From Nitrospiria bacterium (GTDB taxonomy: Bacteria > Nitrospirota > UBA9217): a stretch of DNA of 41,567 nt. Positions within the stretch are counted from its first letter, which is position 1, and each line of letters opens with the position of its first letter. Under the pieces are notes generated by a model. The model saw only the letters and a program-made list of their open reading frames with translations, was not told the origin of the DNA and made no database searches. Location of the stretch: contig CAKKRC010000052.1 of assembly GCA_919902495.1 (NCBI GenBank), forward strand, positions 1 to 41,567. Reading direction: 5' to 3'. Shown in pieces: positions 13,448 through 20,708 of this stretch. Made by a program: the position numbers and the translations under genes.

Positions 13448-14545
13448 TCAGTTGTTATTTGCTCCTTCTGCGATCCATTGCCTGACAGCTTTGTAATCAG
13501 CGTCATCGATCGTCCAGAAGGAACCTCCTGCGTGAATCGTCGTCCCCGGGTCCTGAACTTTAGTTTTCGTCAATACGGGACTTTCATCGGGATTCGACGT
13601 GTTGACGAAATCCTTGATGCCCTGCTTGGTCACTGTTGTCGAGCCGCTCGTGTAGATTGAGCCAGCGTAGGACATGAAATCCTGATTATTGCTGTAGTCG
13701 ATGGACGTGACCGTCGTGTTCGTGAGCTGAACGTTCGATGTGTTGGTTGACGAGGTAGTAACGTCGCTCATCGTCGCGAGTCGGGTCATCCGGGAGCCGG
13801 GGATGTGACAGGGCGCGCACTTGCTCACAAATATCGGCAGGATGTGCTTCCGGAGGCTGAGCGACGAGGTAGGATAGGTCGCAAGGGAGTTCTTCCTCGA
13901 TGCCCATGCAGCTCCCGTGCTGCCGAAGGGAGAGTGGTGCATGTTGCAGCTCATTCGAGCCGTTGAAGCCGAAGAACCGCCGACAGGCGCTATGGTCACC
14001 ATCTGGCGGATCGCGCCGTCGGAGTTCTTCACCCAGGCCTTGTACTGCCAAGTCCTCGAATCAGTCGGGCTTGCCTGTGTGACCGATCCGTCGGCATTCA
14101 CGGCGTAGAGATAATCAGTGATCCCGCTATGGCTCGAAAGCGCATAGTGATTGCCCGCCATTTCCGCATAGGTCCAGAAGTTGCCGGCTTCATTCGTCGT
14201 CATGCTGATTACAGTTCCCGCGTAATCCTGGAGGATCACTTCAGCGCCCTTGAGCGGCCTCCGGGCGGCGCGGTCTTCGTAGATCGTGCCCGCCACGGTG
14301 AACACATAGTTGCCGGCCTTGCCGTTCGGCGTATGACAGATGCCGCAGTCCTCGCCGGAGTTGTGCAGGCCCTGGCCGGGCCCGCTGTCCTTGCCCACAG
14401 TGTGGCCTGTCGGCGCGGGCTGCAGTTTCCGAGCGTCGGCGTTGAAGTTCGTCGAATCATAGGTAAGCGTTTGCGCGTAGAGCATGCCGAAAACGGCTAC
14501 GCCGAGCAAACCGATAATTGCTGTAGCGATAAGCTTTCGTTTCAT
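13448..14545 (-). CDS. exported dihaem c-type cytochrome with a carboxypeptidase-regulatory-like domain
   Basis: A 365-residue protein with an N-terminal signal (hydrophobic to about residue 24). Haem-binding motifs are CGICH (67-71) and CAPCH (244-248); a CNMHH at 201-205 is not a standard site. Between them, AGTIYEDRAARRPLKGAEVILQDYAG is a carboxypeptidase-regulatory-like beta-sandwich. The C-terminal part resembles planctomycete-type cytochrome modules. It is the third gene of a minus-strand operon after an outer-membrane barrel and an FG-GAP lipoprotein, only 33 bases after the latter. This suggests a surface or periplasmic electron-transfer role; partner unknown. Confidence 0.8.
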   Translation of the reverse strand: MKRKLIATAIIGLLGVAVFGMLYAQTLTYDSTNFNADARKLQPAPTGHTVGKDSGPGQGLHNSGEDCGICHTPNGKAGNYVFTVAGTIYEDRAARRPLKGAEVILQDYAGTVISMTTNEAGNFWTYAEMAGNHYALSSHSGITDYLYAVNADGSVTQASPTDSRTWQYKAWVKNSDGAIRQMVTIAPVGGSSASTARMSCNMHHSPFGSTGAAWASRKNSLATYPTSSLSLRKHILPIFVSKCAPCHIPGSRMTRLATMSDVTTSSTNTSNVQLTNTTVTSIDYSNNQDFMSYAGSIYTSGSTTVTKQGIKDFVNTSNPDESPVLTKTKVQDPGTTIHAGGSFWTIDDADYKAVRQWIAEGANNN

Positions 14546-14578
14546 GGTAATTGGTTCCTCCTTGGGTTCCTGTCTCGA

Positions 14579-15976
14579 TCAATGGCAGTCGCCGGTGCCG
14601 CCGGTCGCGCCGCCGCTGCTGCCGCCGGGGACCGCCTGGCCTGTCGCGGGATCGACCATCATCACGCCGCCGGTATCCATGTTGGACCGGGGAGCTCCGA
14701 TCAGAAGCATTCCGCTCGCGCTTTTCGCCAATGACGTGCCGAACTGATGGTTCTTCACCAAGCCTTCAAATTCCGTCGAATTGGCGAGGGTCGTTGTTGA
14801 GGTGATGTCCTTTCCCTTGAAAAGATACACCTTGCCGCTCAGGATGTTCTGGCCTGACAATGTGGTTATGTCGGCCATGGGGGCCCCGACCGCGAAGTCG
14901 GGCTTCCCCCCGTCTCCGTCCACGTCTCCTATAGACGATATGGATGCTCCGAAACGGTTGAACAGACCGGCGCCGTTAATACGCACCAATAGGTCCGCCG
15001 GTGCAGTGTCAAGGGCTACCAGGCCTGTCGCCGAGCCCTTGACGATGAATACGCTGCCGGTATCCCGGAGGTTGTTAATCACCGCGTTCGGCGCGCCGAT
15101 GGCAATTTCGTTCTTGCCGTCGCCGTCGAGATCGCCGATCACAGCAATAGCTTTGCCGAAACCGGCTGCTGTGCTCGTCAGGGTGATGTTCGGTGCATTG
15201 ATCGCCGGCGCAAAGGCTGTTCCGCCGAAATACACAAGGACCTTTCCACTCGCGGCTATCAGCAGATCAGCAATGCCGTCGCCGTTCACATCGCCTGCTG
15301 CTACGCCGAGACCGAGAGCCTTGTTCGTTGTGGACGCGTAAAGCGCAACGCGCGTCGTAAAATCAGGCGCGAAATAGACATAGCCCGCGCCGCTCTGGTA
15401 GAGGGCAGGGTCATTGGTGTTGAACGGAGCGCTGACAATGATATCTGGCTTTCCGTCACCGTCGATGTCTCCGGCCGCAAGGGCATAGCCGAACTTGTCC
15501 ATGGGTCCGTCGCCGCCGATCTTTTTGATGATCCGGCCGTTGCCGCCGCCTTTGTAGATCGTGACCGTGCCGGAGAGCGATGTGTCGCCCGCATCGTCGC
15601 CGCTCCCGTGGATCGCGCTGATCGCAAAATCTGCCTTACCGTCTCCGTCAACGTCTCCCAGGTTAACAAAGGAGTATCCGAAATTATCGTTTCCTGCCTT
15701 GAGAAGGTCTGTGTTGGACGAGCTGTACCCCGAAGTCATGCCTGAGTACACGAGAACGGCGCCGGTGGACGATGCGGATGCCGCATACGGAGCGCCCACG
15801 ATCTTGTCCTCGATTCCGTCGCCGTCAACGTCCACGAATCCCACAGCGAGTCCCTGTTTGCTGCCCACAAGATTTACGGATTGACTTGTCATGCCGCTGC
15901 TATTACTGTTACTGCAGCCCAATGCCATGCCGAAAGCCGCGATGGAAACAGCAAGTAAGATCAACCGATTGCCCAT
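14579..15976 (-). CDS. FG-GAP (integrin-alpha-like) beta-propeller lipoprotein
   Basis: A 465-residue protein with a lipoprotein signal (lipobox ALGC, Cys21) and about seven repeats. Each has a Ca2+-binding DxDGDGxxD loop (for example DVDGDGIED, DVDGDGKAD, DIDGDGKPD, DLDGDGKNE) followed by a GAP/GAPxA turn. This is the FG-GAP fold of integrin-alpha propellers; bacterial members are surface-exposed. ATG 15976 is chosen because it gives an ideal 20-residue lipoprotein leader and has a GGAG site. The alternative ATG 16021 overlaps the barrel stop codon and adds 15 polar residues. The C-terminus is Gly-rich. It sits between a barrel and a cytochrome gene. Confidence 0.85.
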   Translation of the reverse strand: MGNRLILLAVSIAAFGMALGCSNSNSSGMTSQSVNLVGSKQGLAVGFVDVDGDGIEDKIVGAPYAASASSTGAVLVYSGMTSGYSSSNTDLLKAGNDNFGYSFVNLGDVDGDGKADFAISAIHGSGDDAGDTSLSGTVTIYKGGGNGRIIKKIGGDGPMDKFGYALAAGDIDGDGKPDIIVSAPFNTNDPALYQSGAGYVYFAPDFTTRVALYASTTNKALGLGVAAGDVNGDGIADLLIAASGKVLVYFGGTAFAPAINAPNITLTSTAAGFGKAIAVIGDLDGDGKNEIAIGAPNAVINNLRDTGSVFIVKGSATGLVALDTAPADLLVRINGAGLFNRFGASISSIGDVDGDGGKPDFAVGAPMADITTLSGQNILSGKVYLFKGKDITSTTTLANSTEFEGLVKNHQFGTSLAKSASGMLLIGAPRSNMDTGGVMMVDPATGQAVPGGSSGGATGGTGDCH

Positions 15977-16020
15977 GCCTGAGATACTCCTTTCATAATA
16001 ATCATATTGAAATCGCTTCA

Positions 16021-17046
16021 TTAAAATCTATATGCCATGCCGATGACCAGCCGGTAGCGGGTCACCAATTGAATGCCGTTCACGTCTTCCCAGACCGGGA
16101 ACTGCACTTTCATTTCCACCATTGCGTTCTTGATCGGCAACACCTGTATCCCCGGAGACACCCAGAGGCTGTCTCCTCCGGTGTTCGCGGGATCGTCCAT
16201 GAGGCTGTTCAAGTTCGTGTAGTTGCCGTCCCGGTCGCTGGCACTGCCTAAATGTAGATAGGTCATACCGGCGCACACATTGAACTCGCTCGACACGGCG
16301 TACGTTGCGCCGAGATTGACTGCGGTAGAATCACCGAACTCGTATCCTTGCCGGTTCCTTGTGGAGAACTGATGGGTCACATCCGCCCGAAGCAGAAACG
16401 GGTTTGCCATCTGCGTATAGAGGAGGGAAACGAGGGGGTCCCAGGAACCTGTGCCCGGCTGCATGTGAGCATGGATGTACTTCCCGCTCGATGTGGTTTC
16501 CGTTGATGAGCCTGTTGCTGTTTTCACGCCGATTCCCGCGGTCAGCGCCTTGTTCGGCCATATCTCGCTGTCCGTATATATCCGGTAGAGGCCCATGACG
16601 GTCGCATCGCCGGTAGCGGAAATAGGTTCCATGGTCATATCCATCCACCCCAGACCCACACCGTTGCTCATGGTCATGTTCATCGTGTTCCGGAGATAGG
16701 GGATGGAAACGAATCCCTTGAACCGGGAGGAGAAACCGTAGCCCGCGGTGAAGGTGTACTTGATCATGTCCATACTGACGGGGAGGGAGGTGTAGCTCGT
16801 CGAGGCGCTCGCCTCATCGAGCGACTTCGCGGACGTCCCTTGCTTCAGCTTGTCCATGCGGGTGAAACTGTAGGTAAATTGCACGGATATTTCCTCGGAA
16901 GCGGGAGCCGCAACGCCCGAAAGGCTCTCCTGGACGCCGCTGGAAAGCTGGCAGCAGAGACCGGCGGCAAATGACGATGAAGCAAGCAGTAGAGTTATGA
17001 GGACGGTGAAAAGGCTGATCGATATTTTCCGATATCTGCGAACCAT
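16021..17046 (-). CDS. outer-membrane beta-barrel protein, Met-rich loop
   Basis: A 341-residue protein with a Sec signal peptide (cleavage after SSSFA, residue 27). Alternating amphipathic strands and a C-terminal aromatic (VIGMAYRF) mark an outer-membrane barrel. A pair of cysteines (LCCQL) follows the signal. A Met-rich stretch (NTMNMTMSN and GWMDMTMEP, around residues 115-140) could bind soft metals. No family was recognised; it resembles general transporter or MetA-pathway-like barrels only in layout. First gene of the operon with the FG-GAP lipoprotein and dihaem cytochrome. An intrinsic terminator ends just 26 bases upstream of its ATG, so expression may depend on read-through. Confidence 0.75.
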   Translation of the reverse strand: MVRRYRKISISLFTVLITLLLASSSFAAGLCCQLSSGVQESLSGVAAPASEEISVQFTYSFTRMDKLKQGTSAKSLDEASASTSYTSLPVSMDMIKYTFTAGYGFSSRFKGFVSIPYLRNTMNMTMSNGVGLGWMDMTMEPISATGDATVMGLYRIYTDSEIWPNKALTAGIGVKTATGSSTETTSSGKYIHAHMQPGTGSWDPLVSLLYTQMANPFLLRADVTHQFSTRNRQGYEFGDSTAVNLGATYAVSSEFNVCAGMTYLHLGSASDRDGNYTNLNSLMDDPANTGGDSLWVSPGIQVLPIKNAMVEMKVQFPVWEDVNGIQLVTRYRLVIGMAYRF

Positions 17047-17113: not shown

Positions 17114-17926
17114 TTACTTCTTTGCAGTCGGCGCGGTCGGGATTTTCGTCGGATGGCATTCGGTGCAGTTCTGTTGCGCTGGTATACCGACGGTTGCACC
17201 CGCCTTCCATGTTGATTTTGGGACAAACTTACCATCTTTCCATGCATTGAGATCGACAACGAGCTTGTGGGCGACGCTTGCCGCGACGCGGGCACACCGG
17301 TCTTTCCGCTCAGCGCTGCCAAGGGCAAATCCGGACTTATCCATCCATTTGCCGACTGATACATGGCAAAGCGGGGATTCGCTCTTGGTCTGAATGATGG
17401 CGGTTTTCTGTTTGGGCTCCTTGGGGGAGAATGTGGGAAGCGCCGTATTGGAATACCAATCCATCATGTCCGCGCCGATCGTATGGCCGTGCTCACAGTC
17501 CGGGCCGCCGATACGGGGGCCGATGATCACATTACTAACGACATTGGCGCCTGCGTTGGAGCCGCAGACCGTTCCCCAACCTGCCATTCCTCCTTCAAGG
17601 AAAATGAATGAGTCGATGGGGAATGACTTGTAGGGTTCTCCCACTTTTTCCCGCAGCTGGCTGAAAACACTGTTGATGACCGCGGCGCCGCAGAAGACAC
17701 GGTACCATTCCTTGTAGGCAATTTCAGCGGTCGTGTCCGGATCGAGCTTTACATAGGGCCAGGGCCACTTCTCCGATGATCCTCCGAGGGCGGTTGCTGC
17801 CTTTGCTGACAGGAAGCCTCCCGGAAGCACAGCCGCTGCGGCTGTCGCGCCGAGCGCGAGCTTGCCGGCATTGATGATCAGTTCTCTTCTTGAGATCGGT
17901 GTGGCTGACTTATTTTCTGAATCCAT
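17114..17926 (-). CDS. Tat-exported split-Soret-like c-type cytochrome (C_GCAxxG_C_C family candidate)
   Basis: A 270-residue protein with a twin-arginine signal (SRRELI, residues 12-17, then a hydrophobic run to about 45). Conserved elements are FCGAAVINSVFSQL, GGMAGWGTVCGSNAGAN, several further single cysteines, and one haem site CTECH (254-258) near the C-terminus. This order, a Tat signal, a Cys/Gly-rich body and a single C-terminal CxxCH, recalls the split-Soret cytochrome and C_GCAxxG_C_C proteins. Tat export suggests a cofactor inserted before export. ATG 17926 has a strong GGGAGG site; a start at 17965 is less likely. It lies after copy 1 of a duplicated small-gene unit; a tatA gene is at 21437. 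Confidence 0.68.
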   Translation of the reverse strand: MDSENKSATPISRRELIINAGKLALGATAAAAVLPGGFLSAKAATALGGSSEKWPWPYVKLDPDTTAEIAYKEWYRVFCGAAVINSVFSQLREKVGEPYKSFPIDSFIFLEGGMAGWGTVCGSNAGANVVSNVIIGPRIGGPDCEHGHTIGADMMDWYSNTALPTFSPKEPKQKTAIIQTKSESPLCHVSVGKWMDKSGFALGSAERKDRCARVAASVAHKLVVDLNAWKDGKFVPKSTWKAGATVGIPAQQNCTECHPTKIPTAPTAKK

Positions 17927-17953
17927 GATCGTTACCTCCCGGTGGTAAAGAAT

Positions 17954-17972
17954 ACACCTGATCAACAGGTGT
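17954..17972 (-). promoter_or_regulatory. operator-like inverted repeat upstream of the split-Soret-like gene
   Basis: ACACCTG-atcaa-CAGGTGT, perfect 7-base arms, 28 bases upstream of ATG 17926. Symmetry and position suit a dimeric regulator; a hairpin in the leader is the alternative. No clear -35/-10 pair was seen next to it. Confidence 0.45.
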
Positions 17973-18026: not shown

Positions 18027-18065
18027 CGGGAATATCTTTATGAAAATTGGGATGATGGATACTCC

Positions 18066-18198
18066 CGAAGCGGAGCCGAGCGTAAAGGGAAGACACGTCC
18101 AATGAGCTTGCGCAACGGCTTGCAGGACGATGCGCGAACATACCTAGGACGTTGATGCACTGCGGTCAGCGCTTTCGGAAATACTGGGTATGAAGAGA
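18066..18198 (-). other. conserved non-coding tail of duplicated unit, copy 1
   Basis: About 130 bases directly after the stop of the small exported-protein gene. They match copy 2 (20254-20385) at roughly nine bases in ten, including long blocks such as TATTTCCGAAAGCGCTGACC and TATGTTCGCGCATCGTCC. No shared frame looks like a gene. Conservation outside the coding part suggests a structured 3' UTR or small RNA, or simply a recent duplication. Confidence 0.5.
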
Positions 18199-18486
18199 CT
18201 ATGCCTTGGGGGGTTGTTCGTTAGGAGCGGTGAAGACAACTTCGGTGAATAGGGGATGGAACGTATCTGAGGCCGTTATAGTGAGGTAAAGCGGCAGTTG
18301 AGAAGTGTGTATACTTACGCAGGGCATTTCGCCGTTCGAAGAAAGGGCCGGGGCGGCAGAGTTGCAGACGTCCAGGTTCCCGAGGAGCGGCTGTTCCTGC
18401 CGGTCAAGGATGAGTGCGAACGGAGAAAGGGGTGCCAATACCGTGAATGCCAGAACAACAAGAAGGTTGATAGTTACCCATTTCAT
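18199..18486 (-). CDS. small exported protein of unknown function, duplicate copy 1
   Basis: A 95-residue protein starting MKWVTINLLVVLAFTVLAP, a signal-peptide-like hydrophobic N-terminus. The mature part has two cysteines (DVCNSAAPALSSNGEMPC) that could form a disulfide, and a C-terminal beta-rich segment. A paralogue at 20386-20673 is about 80 percent identical, so it is a real gene. GTG 18492 would add two residues, but the paralogue supports ATG 18486. A -10 box ends six bases before this ATG, so the mRNA is probably leaderless. It lies upstream of the split-Soret-like gene. No family recognised. Confidence 0.75.
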   Translation of the reverse strand: MKWVTINLLVVLAFTVLAPLSPFALILDRQEQPLLGNLDVCNSAAPALSSNGEMPCVSIHTSQLPLYLTITASDTFHPLFTEVVFTAPNEQPPKA

Positions 18487-18492
18487 AGGCAC

Positions 18493-18733: not shown

Positions 18734-18761
18734 AAAAAAGACGGGGACTATCGTCCCCGTC
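18734..18761 (-). terminator. intrinsic terminator of the five-haem cytochrome gene
   Basis: GACGGGGAC and GTCCCCGTC pair over nine bases around a 4-base loop, followed on the minus strand by UUUUUU. It lies 35 bases after the stop codon at 18796, supporting one transcript that extends through the in-frame UGA at 19189. Confidence 0.9.
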
Positions 18762-18795
18762 TGTAAGATCAAAGCGTGCTGTGCGGATCGTTTTT

Positions 18796-20088
18796 CTATT
18801 TGATGGTCACGGTCTTGGTGGTCTCGAAGAAAAGGTACTTGCCTTTGTTCACCTCGACGGCCTTGTCGTCGCGGTGGTCGCCGCCGGCCGGCAGGTACCA
18901 CAGCTTGACGGTAACCTCCATCTCCTTGGCCTTGATGTCGCGGACCTTCTTGCCGTCCTTCTCGACGTCCTCATAGGGGAACTTGATGTCGAAGTTCTCG
19001 GTCTTTGTCTTGCCGGGCTGGAGGCTCGTGTCGCGCAGCATGCCGGACTTCCGGAAGGGGCCGTACACCATCTTGTCACCCCTGCCGAACGCAGGGGACT
19101 GGGGCATGTAGATCTTGGAATCGTTGAATATCTCTTTTCCATCCTTGGTCTTTGCGGTCACATCCAGGACCACTCGATTGGGGGATGGTCAGCCATCGGG
19201 AATGCGGTGTCCCGCGTTGCTGGTCATTTTCACGACCACGACTGCCGTCGGGATGTGTTCGCCCGCCTTGTAGAGCACCTGGTAGCCCTTGGCGTCCACA
19301 TCGACGTCCACGGCGGACTTGGCGATGGCGGGATCGCGGTAGCCGGGCATGAGGTGCCCCGTCTTGCCCTTATGCATGTGGCAATCCTGGCAGGTCTCGG
19401 GAGTTCCGTTCGTGCTCTGCACGTAATTGTGCAGGTAGCTGCCATAGAGCGTGGCGCACTGCGTGGGATTCGCAAGGTCGAAGTTGGGGCCCAGGCCGTG
19501 GCACTGGCCGCAGACGATGGATTCCTTCATGATGGGACTCTTCTTGAGGGCCGTGAACAGCTTGTCGCCGTGTGAGCCTTCCTTGTTCCCGTAGACCGCG
19601 TTCTTCTCCGGCTCGCCGTCCACCAGCTTGTGGATGAGCGCCTTCTCGTTATGGCAGATGATGCAGTTGATGCTGACCTTCTCCAGCGTGGCCGTATCGC
19701 CGTCGATCACCGCCTTGGCGATCTGCTGGGCAACTGCGTCCGTGGCGTTCTTGAGCTGGGGCAGGTGGCACTTCAGGCAGTGAAGCATGTGATCGACCTT
19801 GATGTCCTTCACGTCCTTGATGCCCGATTTCGCCCATTCCTTCATCATGCCGTCCTGGATGGCCGTCTTGATCGTGGCCATGGTCCGGCCGGTGCCGATG
19901 AGGGAGCGGGCATGGATGGACTTCTCCCATTCACCGTATTCCTTGGGATGACACTGCTTGCACGATGACACGTCATACATCTTGGCGAGCTCGTCGACGG
20001 TCGTCGCCTTCTTTTCCTGCGCTGCCGTCATCCCGGCCAGCAGAAGCGTTGCGAGGAAAAGTGCTGCTACAGCTTTCGTAACTCTCAT
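18796..20088 (-). CDS. five-haem c-type cytochrome with an in-frame UGA, probable selenoprotein (ExtKL-like)
   Basis: Read through UGA 19191-19189, this is a 430-residue exported protein. The signal peptide ends near residue 23. Five CxxCH sites follow: CKQCH 43-47, CLKCH 104-108, CIICH 142-146, CGQCH 193-197, CQDCH 233-237. The first lies in a cytochrome c554-like context. A beta-rich C-terminal domain follows, containing AGHRIPDG-U-PSPNRVV with the UGA at codon 300. The downstream part (to 18796) stays in the same frame with no other stop, begins without its own ribosome site, and ends before a good terminator. A SECIS-like hairpin follows the UGA. From memory, Geobacter ExtKL-type cytochromes are also read as selenoproteins. 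A nonsense mutation or sequencing error is the alternative. Strong AAAGGAGG site at the start. Confidence 0.75.
19154..19191 (-). promoter_or_regulatory. candidate bacterial SECIS element with UGA codon
   Basis: After the UGA (19191-19189), bases 16-21 (GUGGUC) pair with bases 30-35 (GACCGC), including one G-U pair. They enclose the loop CUGGAUGU with GG near its tip. The loop starts 22 bases after the UGA, within the range usual for bacterial SECIS. A competing 5-bp stem (CAUCC/GGAUG) closer to the UGA is possible. Confidence 0.45.
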
Positions 20089-20129
20089 GCGATTCCTCCT
20101 TTCAGTGATAGAGATCGTACCCGTGAGCT

Positions 20130-20180: not shown

Positions 20181-20253
20181 GCCCGCTATGCAGCATTGTG
20201 CATCTACCTGTTTTGTTGCACAGGTTCGCATGAATGCTCAGCCAGAGGATCGC

Positions 20254-20385
20254 CGAAGCAGGGCCGAGCGCAAAGGGAAGAAACGTCCAATGAGTTTGCG
20301 CACCGGCTTGCAGGACGATGCGCGAACATACCAAGGACGGTGATGCACCGCGGTCAGCGCTTTCGGAAATACAGGTATGGAGAAG
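20254..20385 (-). other. conserved non-coding tail of duplicated unit, copy 2
   Basis: Counterpart of 18066-18198, immediately after the stop of the second small exported-protein gene. Differences between the copies are mainly single substitutions, and the central block around TATGTTCGCGCATCGTCC is unchanged. Confidence 0.5.
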
Positions 20386-20673
20386 CTATGCCTTGGGGGG
20401 GTGTTCGTTTGGAGCAGTAAAGACAACTTCGGTGAACACGGGATGGAACGAATCCGAGGTCGTGATGGATAGGTAGATCGGCAGATCGGAAGAGTGTATG
20501 GTCACACAGGGCATTTCACCGTTCGAAGAAAGGGCCGGGGCGGCAGAGTTGCAGACGTCTAAATTTCCGAGGAGCGGCTGTTCCTGGCGGTCAATGATAA
20601 GCGCGAACGGAGAAAGGGGAGCAAACACCGTGAATGCGAGAACAACAAGAAGGATGCATGATACCCATTTCAT
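20386..20673 (-). CDS. small exported protein of unknown function, duplicate copy 2
   Basis: A 95-residue paralogue of the product at 18199-18486, starting MKWVSCILLVVLAFTVFAP. The signal-like N-terminus, the CNSAAPALSSNGEMPC block and the C-terminal FTEVVFTAPNE segment are almost unchanged. An upstream ATG at 20694 would overlap the promoter, so ATG 20673 is preferred. A strong promoter ends six bases before it, predicting leaderless translation. It precedes the five-haem cytochrome gene, as copy 1 precedes the split-Soret-like gene. That repeated arrangement hints at a link with exported redox proteins, but function is unknown. Confidence 0.78.
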   Translation of the reverse strand: MKWVSCILLVVLAFTVFAPLSPFALIIDRQEQPLLGNLDVCNSAAPALSSNGEMPCVTIHSSDLPIYLSITTSDSFHPVFTEVVFTAPNEHPPKA

Positions 20674-20679
20674 GAAGGC

Positions 20680-20708
20680 ACTATAGTGACACATGCGATT
20701 TCTGTCAA
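20680..20708 (-). promoter_or_regulatory. promoter of small exported protein gene, copy 2
   Basis: Minus strand: TTGACA (20703-20708), 17-base spacer, TATAGT (20680-20685), six bases, ATG. The start point should fall on or next to the A of ATG. Confidence 0.8.

Follow-up and report, generated by a model that had tools for sequence, protein, structure and literature searches.

The window, the whole 41,567-nucleotide stretch of a Nitrospiria bacterium contig that was analysed, carries on its minus strand a gene of the extKL type. Its frame translation opens at an ATG at 20088 and closes with a TAG ending at 18796, and the sole interruption of the 430-residue frame is a TGA at codon 300, flanked by AGHRIPDG and PSPNRVV. 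Five CXXCH motifs (residues 43, 104, 142, 193 and 233) all lie before the TGA and are invariant across the homologue alignment. The open reading frame of the downstream half has a GTG at 19173 as its sole listed start, and inspection of the sequence found no Shine-Dalgarno sequence before it. An earlier reading of the same letters without database searches (the sequence-only reading) had described a five-haem cytochrome whose two halves share a frame across a single UGA, the downstream half having no ribosome site of its own and ending at a strong terminator. This description stands in all its parts: the single frame of 430 residues, the GTG with no ribosome site before it, the stem and T tail that end the gene, and the five CXXCH motifs together with the family match given below. 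Ordinary gene callers would cut a gene of this type into two.

Upstream of the gene are MobA-like, RecJ and RelA/SpoT genes (Pfam, NCBIfam); on its downstream side, a protein resembling split-Soret cytochromes is accompanied by a set of three genes with FG-GAP repeats. The split-Soret-like product has a C_GCAxxG_C_C domain, and its similarity to split-Soret cytochrome c is below the cut-off. The three-gene set (an FG-GAP repeat protein between two unknown proteins) is also found beside ExtKL in a relative from Hainich, in a different gene order. The cytochrome gene is flanked by direct repeats of about 420 bases that are 85-92% identical, each coding for a small protein of about 97-102 amino acids with a hydrophobic N-terminus. 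Twelve bases at 20483-20494 match the beginning of the Illumina adapter; this match was set aside, as 34 of 100 shuffles have one at the one-mismatch setting and the site lies within a native copy of the repeat.

Table 1. Features of the extKL-type locus and its surroundings, in window coordinates
Feature	Position	Strand	Details
extKL-type gene	18796..20088	minus	430 codons + TAG, one TGA read through
Domains of the predicted product			signal peptide, five-haem domain, C-terminal beta domain
TGA codon, predicted selenocysteine residue 300	19189..19191	minus	70 TGA + 20 TGC/TGT in homologues; aligned to X (Sec) of MccSep 9wt8
Shine-Dalgarno AGGAGG	20094..20099	minus	sequence, upstream of the extKL-type ATG
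SECIS-like hairpin GTGGTCC-TGGAT-GTGACCGC	19154..19173	minus	pairing starts at the 16th base after UGA
Candidate outer stem CCAUCC/GGAUGG around the hairpin	19139..19188	minus	MFE -18.2, z -2.2
Intrinsic terminator	18739..18762	minus	10-bp stem, then T run
C_GCAxxG_C_C domain protein	17114..17965	minus
Three-gene set	13448..17046	minus
Direct repeats	18065..18486; 20253..20673
Small proteins coded in the repeats	18199..18492; 20386..20694	minus

The protein obtained by reading through the TGA matches the NCBIfam family NF040886, 'multiheme c-type cytochrome (seleno)protein ExtKL', with 532 bits (E 6.6e-160), more than twice the curated cut-off of 250 bits. In a diverse alignment of 46 sequences, each one likewise matches NF040886. 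Over residues 22-407 the read-through protein also matches the PDB entries of the multiheme cytochrome c selenoprotein MccSep (9wt8-9wtc) at E about 1e-134. Selenocysteine (Sec) 300 is aligned to X in the wild-type protein (9wt8) and to A in the mutant named U325A; the PDB names imply that MccSep itself contains Sec. MccSep is similar in length (about 450 amino acids) and in the position of its Sec (U325), but it belongs to another clade. The gene is therefore a member of an already named and curated ExtKL/MccSep family with solved structures, and not a new kind of thing. Its closest relatives are Nitrospirae/Nitrospiria records, and plasmid records gave only weak matches (Leptospira multihaem). 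A second ExtKL paralogue in the same genome, on contig C87, also has one TGA.

The sequence-only reading had pointed to a comparable reading for Geobacter ExtKL, and the comparison is right, both being of one NCBIfam family (PMC1914089, PMC5877670, PMC6148476). A stop-codon survey of 2007 first proposed the Geobacter pair GSU2937 and GSU2936 as a selenoprotein; a SECIS was not found and a cysteine (Cys) homologue was not known, and the choice between two separate proteins and one selenoprotein was left open (PMC1914089). ExtKL was later treated as a Cytc-like selenoprotein, with citation of preliminary results that connect it with the reduction of selenite (PMC5877670); it is also described in PMC6148476 and is included among the known selenoprotein families in a 2026 review (PMC13188914). 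The G. sulfurreducens protein shares with ours the family, five CXXCH motifs and a TGA at the corresponding place. In contrast, our gene is solitary with its own terminator, and its genome has two paralogues. The Geobacter ext cluster has extH (rhodanese), extI (porin) and extJ as neighbours, whereas no counterpart of these was recognised among ten neighbouring products searched with Pfam and a partly overlapping ten searched with NCBIfam, in which small unlabelled open reading frames could still hide one.

A single-chain AlphaFold2 model built from the alignment has a mean pLDDT of 90 and a pTM of 0.85. Residue 300 falls within the C-terminal beta domain, in the loop that joins strands 278-290 and 305-314; a stop at the UGA would thus leave this domain incomplete. 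Among the fold matches listed, the best whole-length PDB match is the penta-haem cytochrome c552 of Thermochromatium tepidum (5ze8; TM 0.52, E 6e-13), at 16% identity. The MccSep entries are absent from the matches listed and were probably released after that structure library was made.

We surveyed 396 genomes of the phylum; 252 have a match at E 1e-20, and in 113 the score is higher than the curated cut-off. The residue at the site is Sec in 70 of 96 aligned homologues (all TGA) and Cys in 20 (TGC or TGT); four have Ser and two His, in remote relatives only. The sequence-only reading had set U or C at this site against Trp or Gly, and neither Trp nor Gly is found in any of the 96. The context GHRIPDG-U/C-P is kept in most homologues, and a maximum-likelihood tree requires Sec and Cys to have been exchanged four times or more. 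Among the homologues read, including a Thermodesulfobacteriota set, neither TAA nor TAG occupies the site. One ExtKL gene that codes for Cys at this position (G686:C11:70622-71821) has an unrelated in-frame TAA elsewhere and is possibly a pseudogene.

These patterns bear on the possibility that ExtK and ExtL are two separate proteins of a tight operon and that the UGA is a true stop, as the long-split Geobacter annotation and the question left open in 2007 would allow (PMC1914089). The second half lacks a ribosome site, a stop would divide one beta domain between its strands, 20 homologues have an open frame with Cys, and the other stop codons do not occur at the site in the homologues read. 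The two-protein explanation is already largely refuted, and we regard it as very improbable. A pseudogene or a one-base sequencing error might be considered in a draft genome of 110 contigs, but a gene of 89% identity from a different assembly has TGA at the same site, as do more than 100 other loci in two phyla, and the paralogue on C87 shares the feature. This explanation has, in our estimate, a negligible chance of being correct.

The selenoprotein reading also predicts a signal downstream of the UGA. As RNA, the hairpin reads GUGGUCC-UGGAU-GUGACCGC, and the sequence-only reading was right in placing it 16 bases after the UGA with a GG-containing loop (UGGAU). The 20-mer folds with a mean energy of -7.2 kcal/mol in 67 distinct TGA genes, compared with -1.98 (sd 0.21) for random synonymous recodings, where the sd overstates certainty because the recodings assume independent sequences. 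The 20 Cys genes show no excess (-0.96 vs -0.95 for recodings); this control is free of the independence weakness, but it is small and has other protein sequence around the site. Taken by itself, the window gene folds better than 99.6% of its synonymous recodings, the remaining 0.4% doing equally well. Thirty-three TGA genes of the Thermodesulfobacteriota (the phylum of locus L019), in a table that also takes in two added Nitrospirota loci, average -6.64 vs -2.07 for recodings, and paired double changes occur in the stem of this set, for example C-G to G-C in L152 and L153. As judged from sequence comparison, the hairpin is conserved in TGA genes far beyond the needs of the protein and is absent as an excess in Cys genes, which, with the G in its loop, agrees with the SECIS-like character first ascribed to it. 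In the clade nearest to MccSep (L127 and L131 among the relatives fetched) the distance from the UGA to the hairpin is shorter by about four bases; this shift may be the reason that earlier SECIS scans of Geobacter failed.

The genome of the window (3.67 Mb in draft, 97% complete) contains all four of the genes for which the sequence-only reading had proposed a search. The genes selA and selB are adjacent to each other, the tRNA-Sec gene (selC) has the anticodon TCA in DNA (UCA), and selD (G000:C28:84998-85912) has an in-frame TGA of its own. When selA and selB were compared among 46 genomes, both were present in the TGA-bearing genomes except G041, where neither was found, and G033, where only a fragment of selA was found. 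These gaps likely reflect missing contigs, because the two genes are neighbours in the genome of the window. Most Cys-only genomes also retain selA and selB, G243 being the only one of those checked without both. The idea that Cys forms mark a loss of the Sec machinery was accordingly rejected, and the presence of the machinery alone cannot separate Sec from Cys forms. Six sampled genomes of one further group (f9), without selA and selB, have remote ExtKL matches only (His in the two aligned).

A third explanation is that the UGA is decoded as another amino acid, either as Trp or Gly under a recoded genetic code or through leaky read-through. Within the family proper Sec is replaced by nothing but Cys, and Trp and Gly occur in none of the aligned homologues; tRNA-Sec and selB are present, and the hairpin is confined to TGA genes. 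We consider this explanation extremely unlikely.

The single frame, the family match, the exchange of Sec and Cys, the TGA-restricted hairpin and the Sec machinery support the original proposal of a selenoprotein read through an in-frame UGA. We estimate a probability of about 0.95 that the gene encodes an ExtKL/MccSep selenoprotein in which UGA-300 is decoded as Sec; the figure covers identity and decoding, apart from the biochemical role. Expressed from its own ribosome site and bounded by its own terminator, the message would be bound by SelB with Sec-tRNA at the hairpin just past UGA-300. Sec would then be inserted in this organism, as the genomic evidence suggests, to give one 430-residue pentahaem cytochrome, probably exported to the periplasm. 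A selenol placed in the domain beside the haems of an exported cytochrome suggests electron delivery to the Sec site: the haem chain would feed a redox-active Sec at a reaction site in the adjoining domain, perhaps for the reduction of a small oxidant such as the selenite suggested for Geobacter. A broader proposal, which we offer tentatively and hold at somewhat under even odds, is that the Sec/Cys site turns pentahaem ExtKL-type proteins into catalytic redox enzymes and not plain carriers, either with haems supplying electrons to a selenol at the active site or with a selenolate beside or on a haem. In this view Sec and Cys would have replaced each other repeatedly in Nitrospirota, and a genome would carry several classes of paralogue.

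An ExtKL/MccSep member in a Nitrospirota-type bacterium is in itself an ordinary find, the family being curated and its structures solved. The two doubts attached to the 2007 proposal (PMC1914089) are answered, in that Cys homologues exist and selection acts on a SECIS-like hairpin. The family occurs widely among Nitrospirota, often in duplicate, and natural Sec/Cys pairs are available for asking why a multihaem cytochrome uses selenium.
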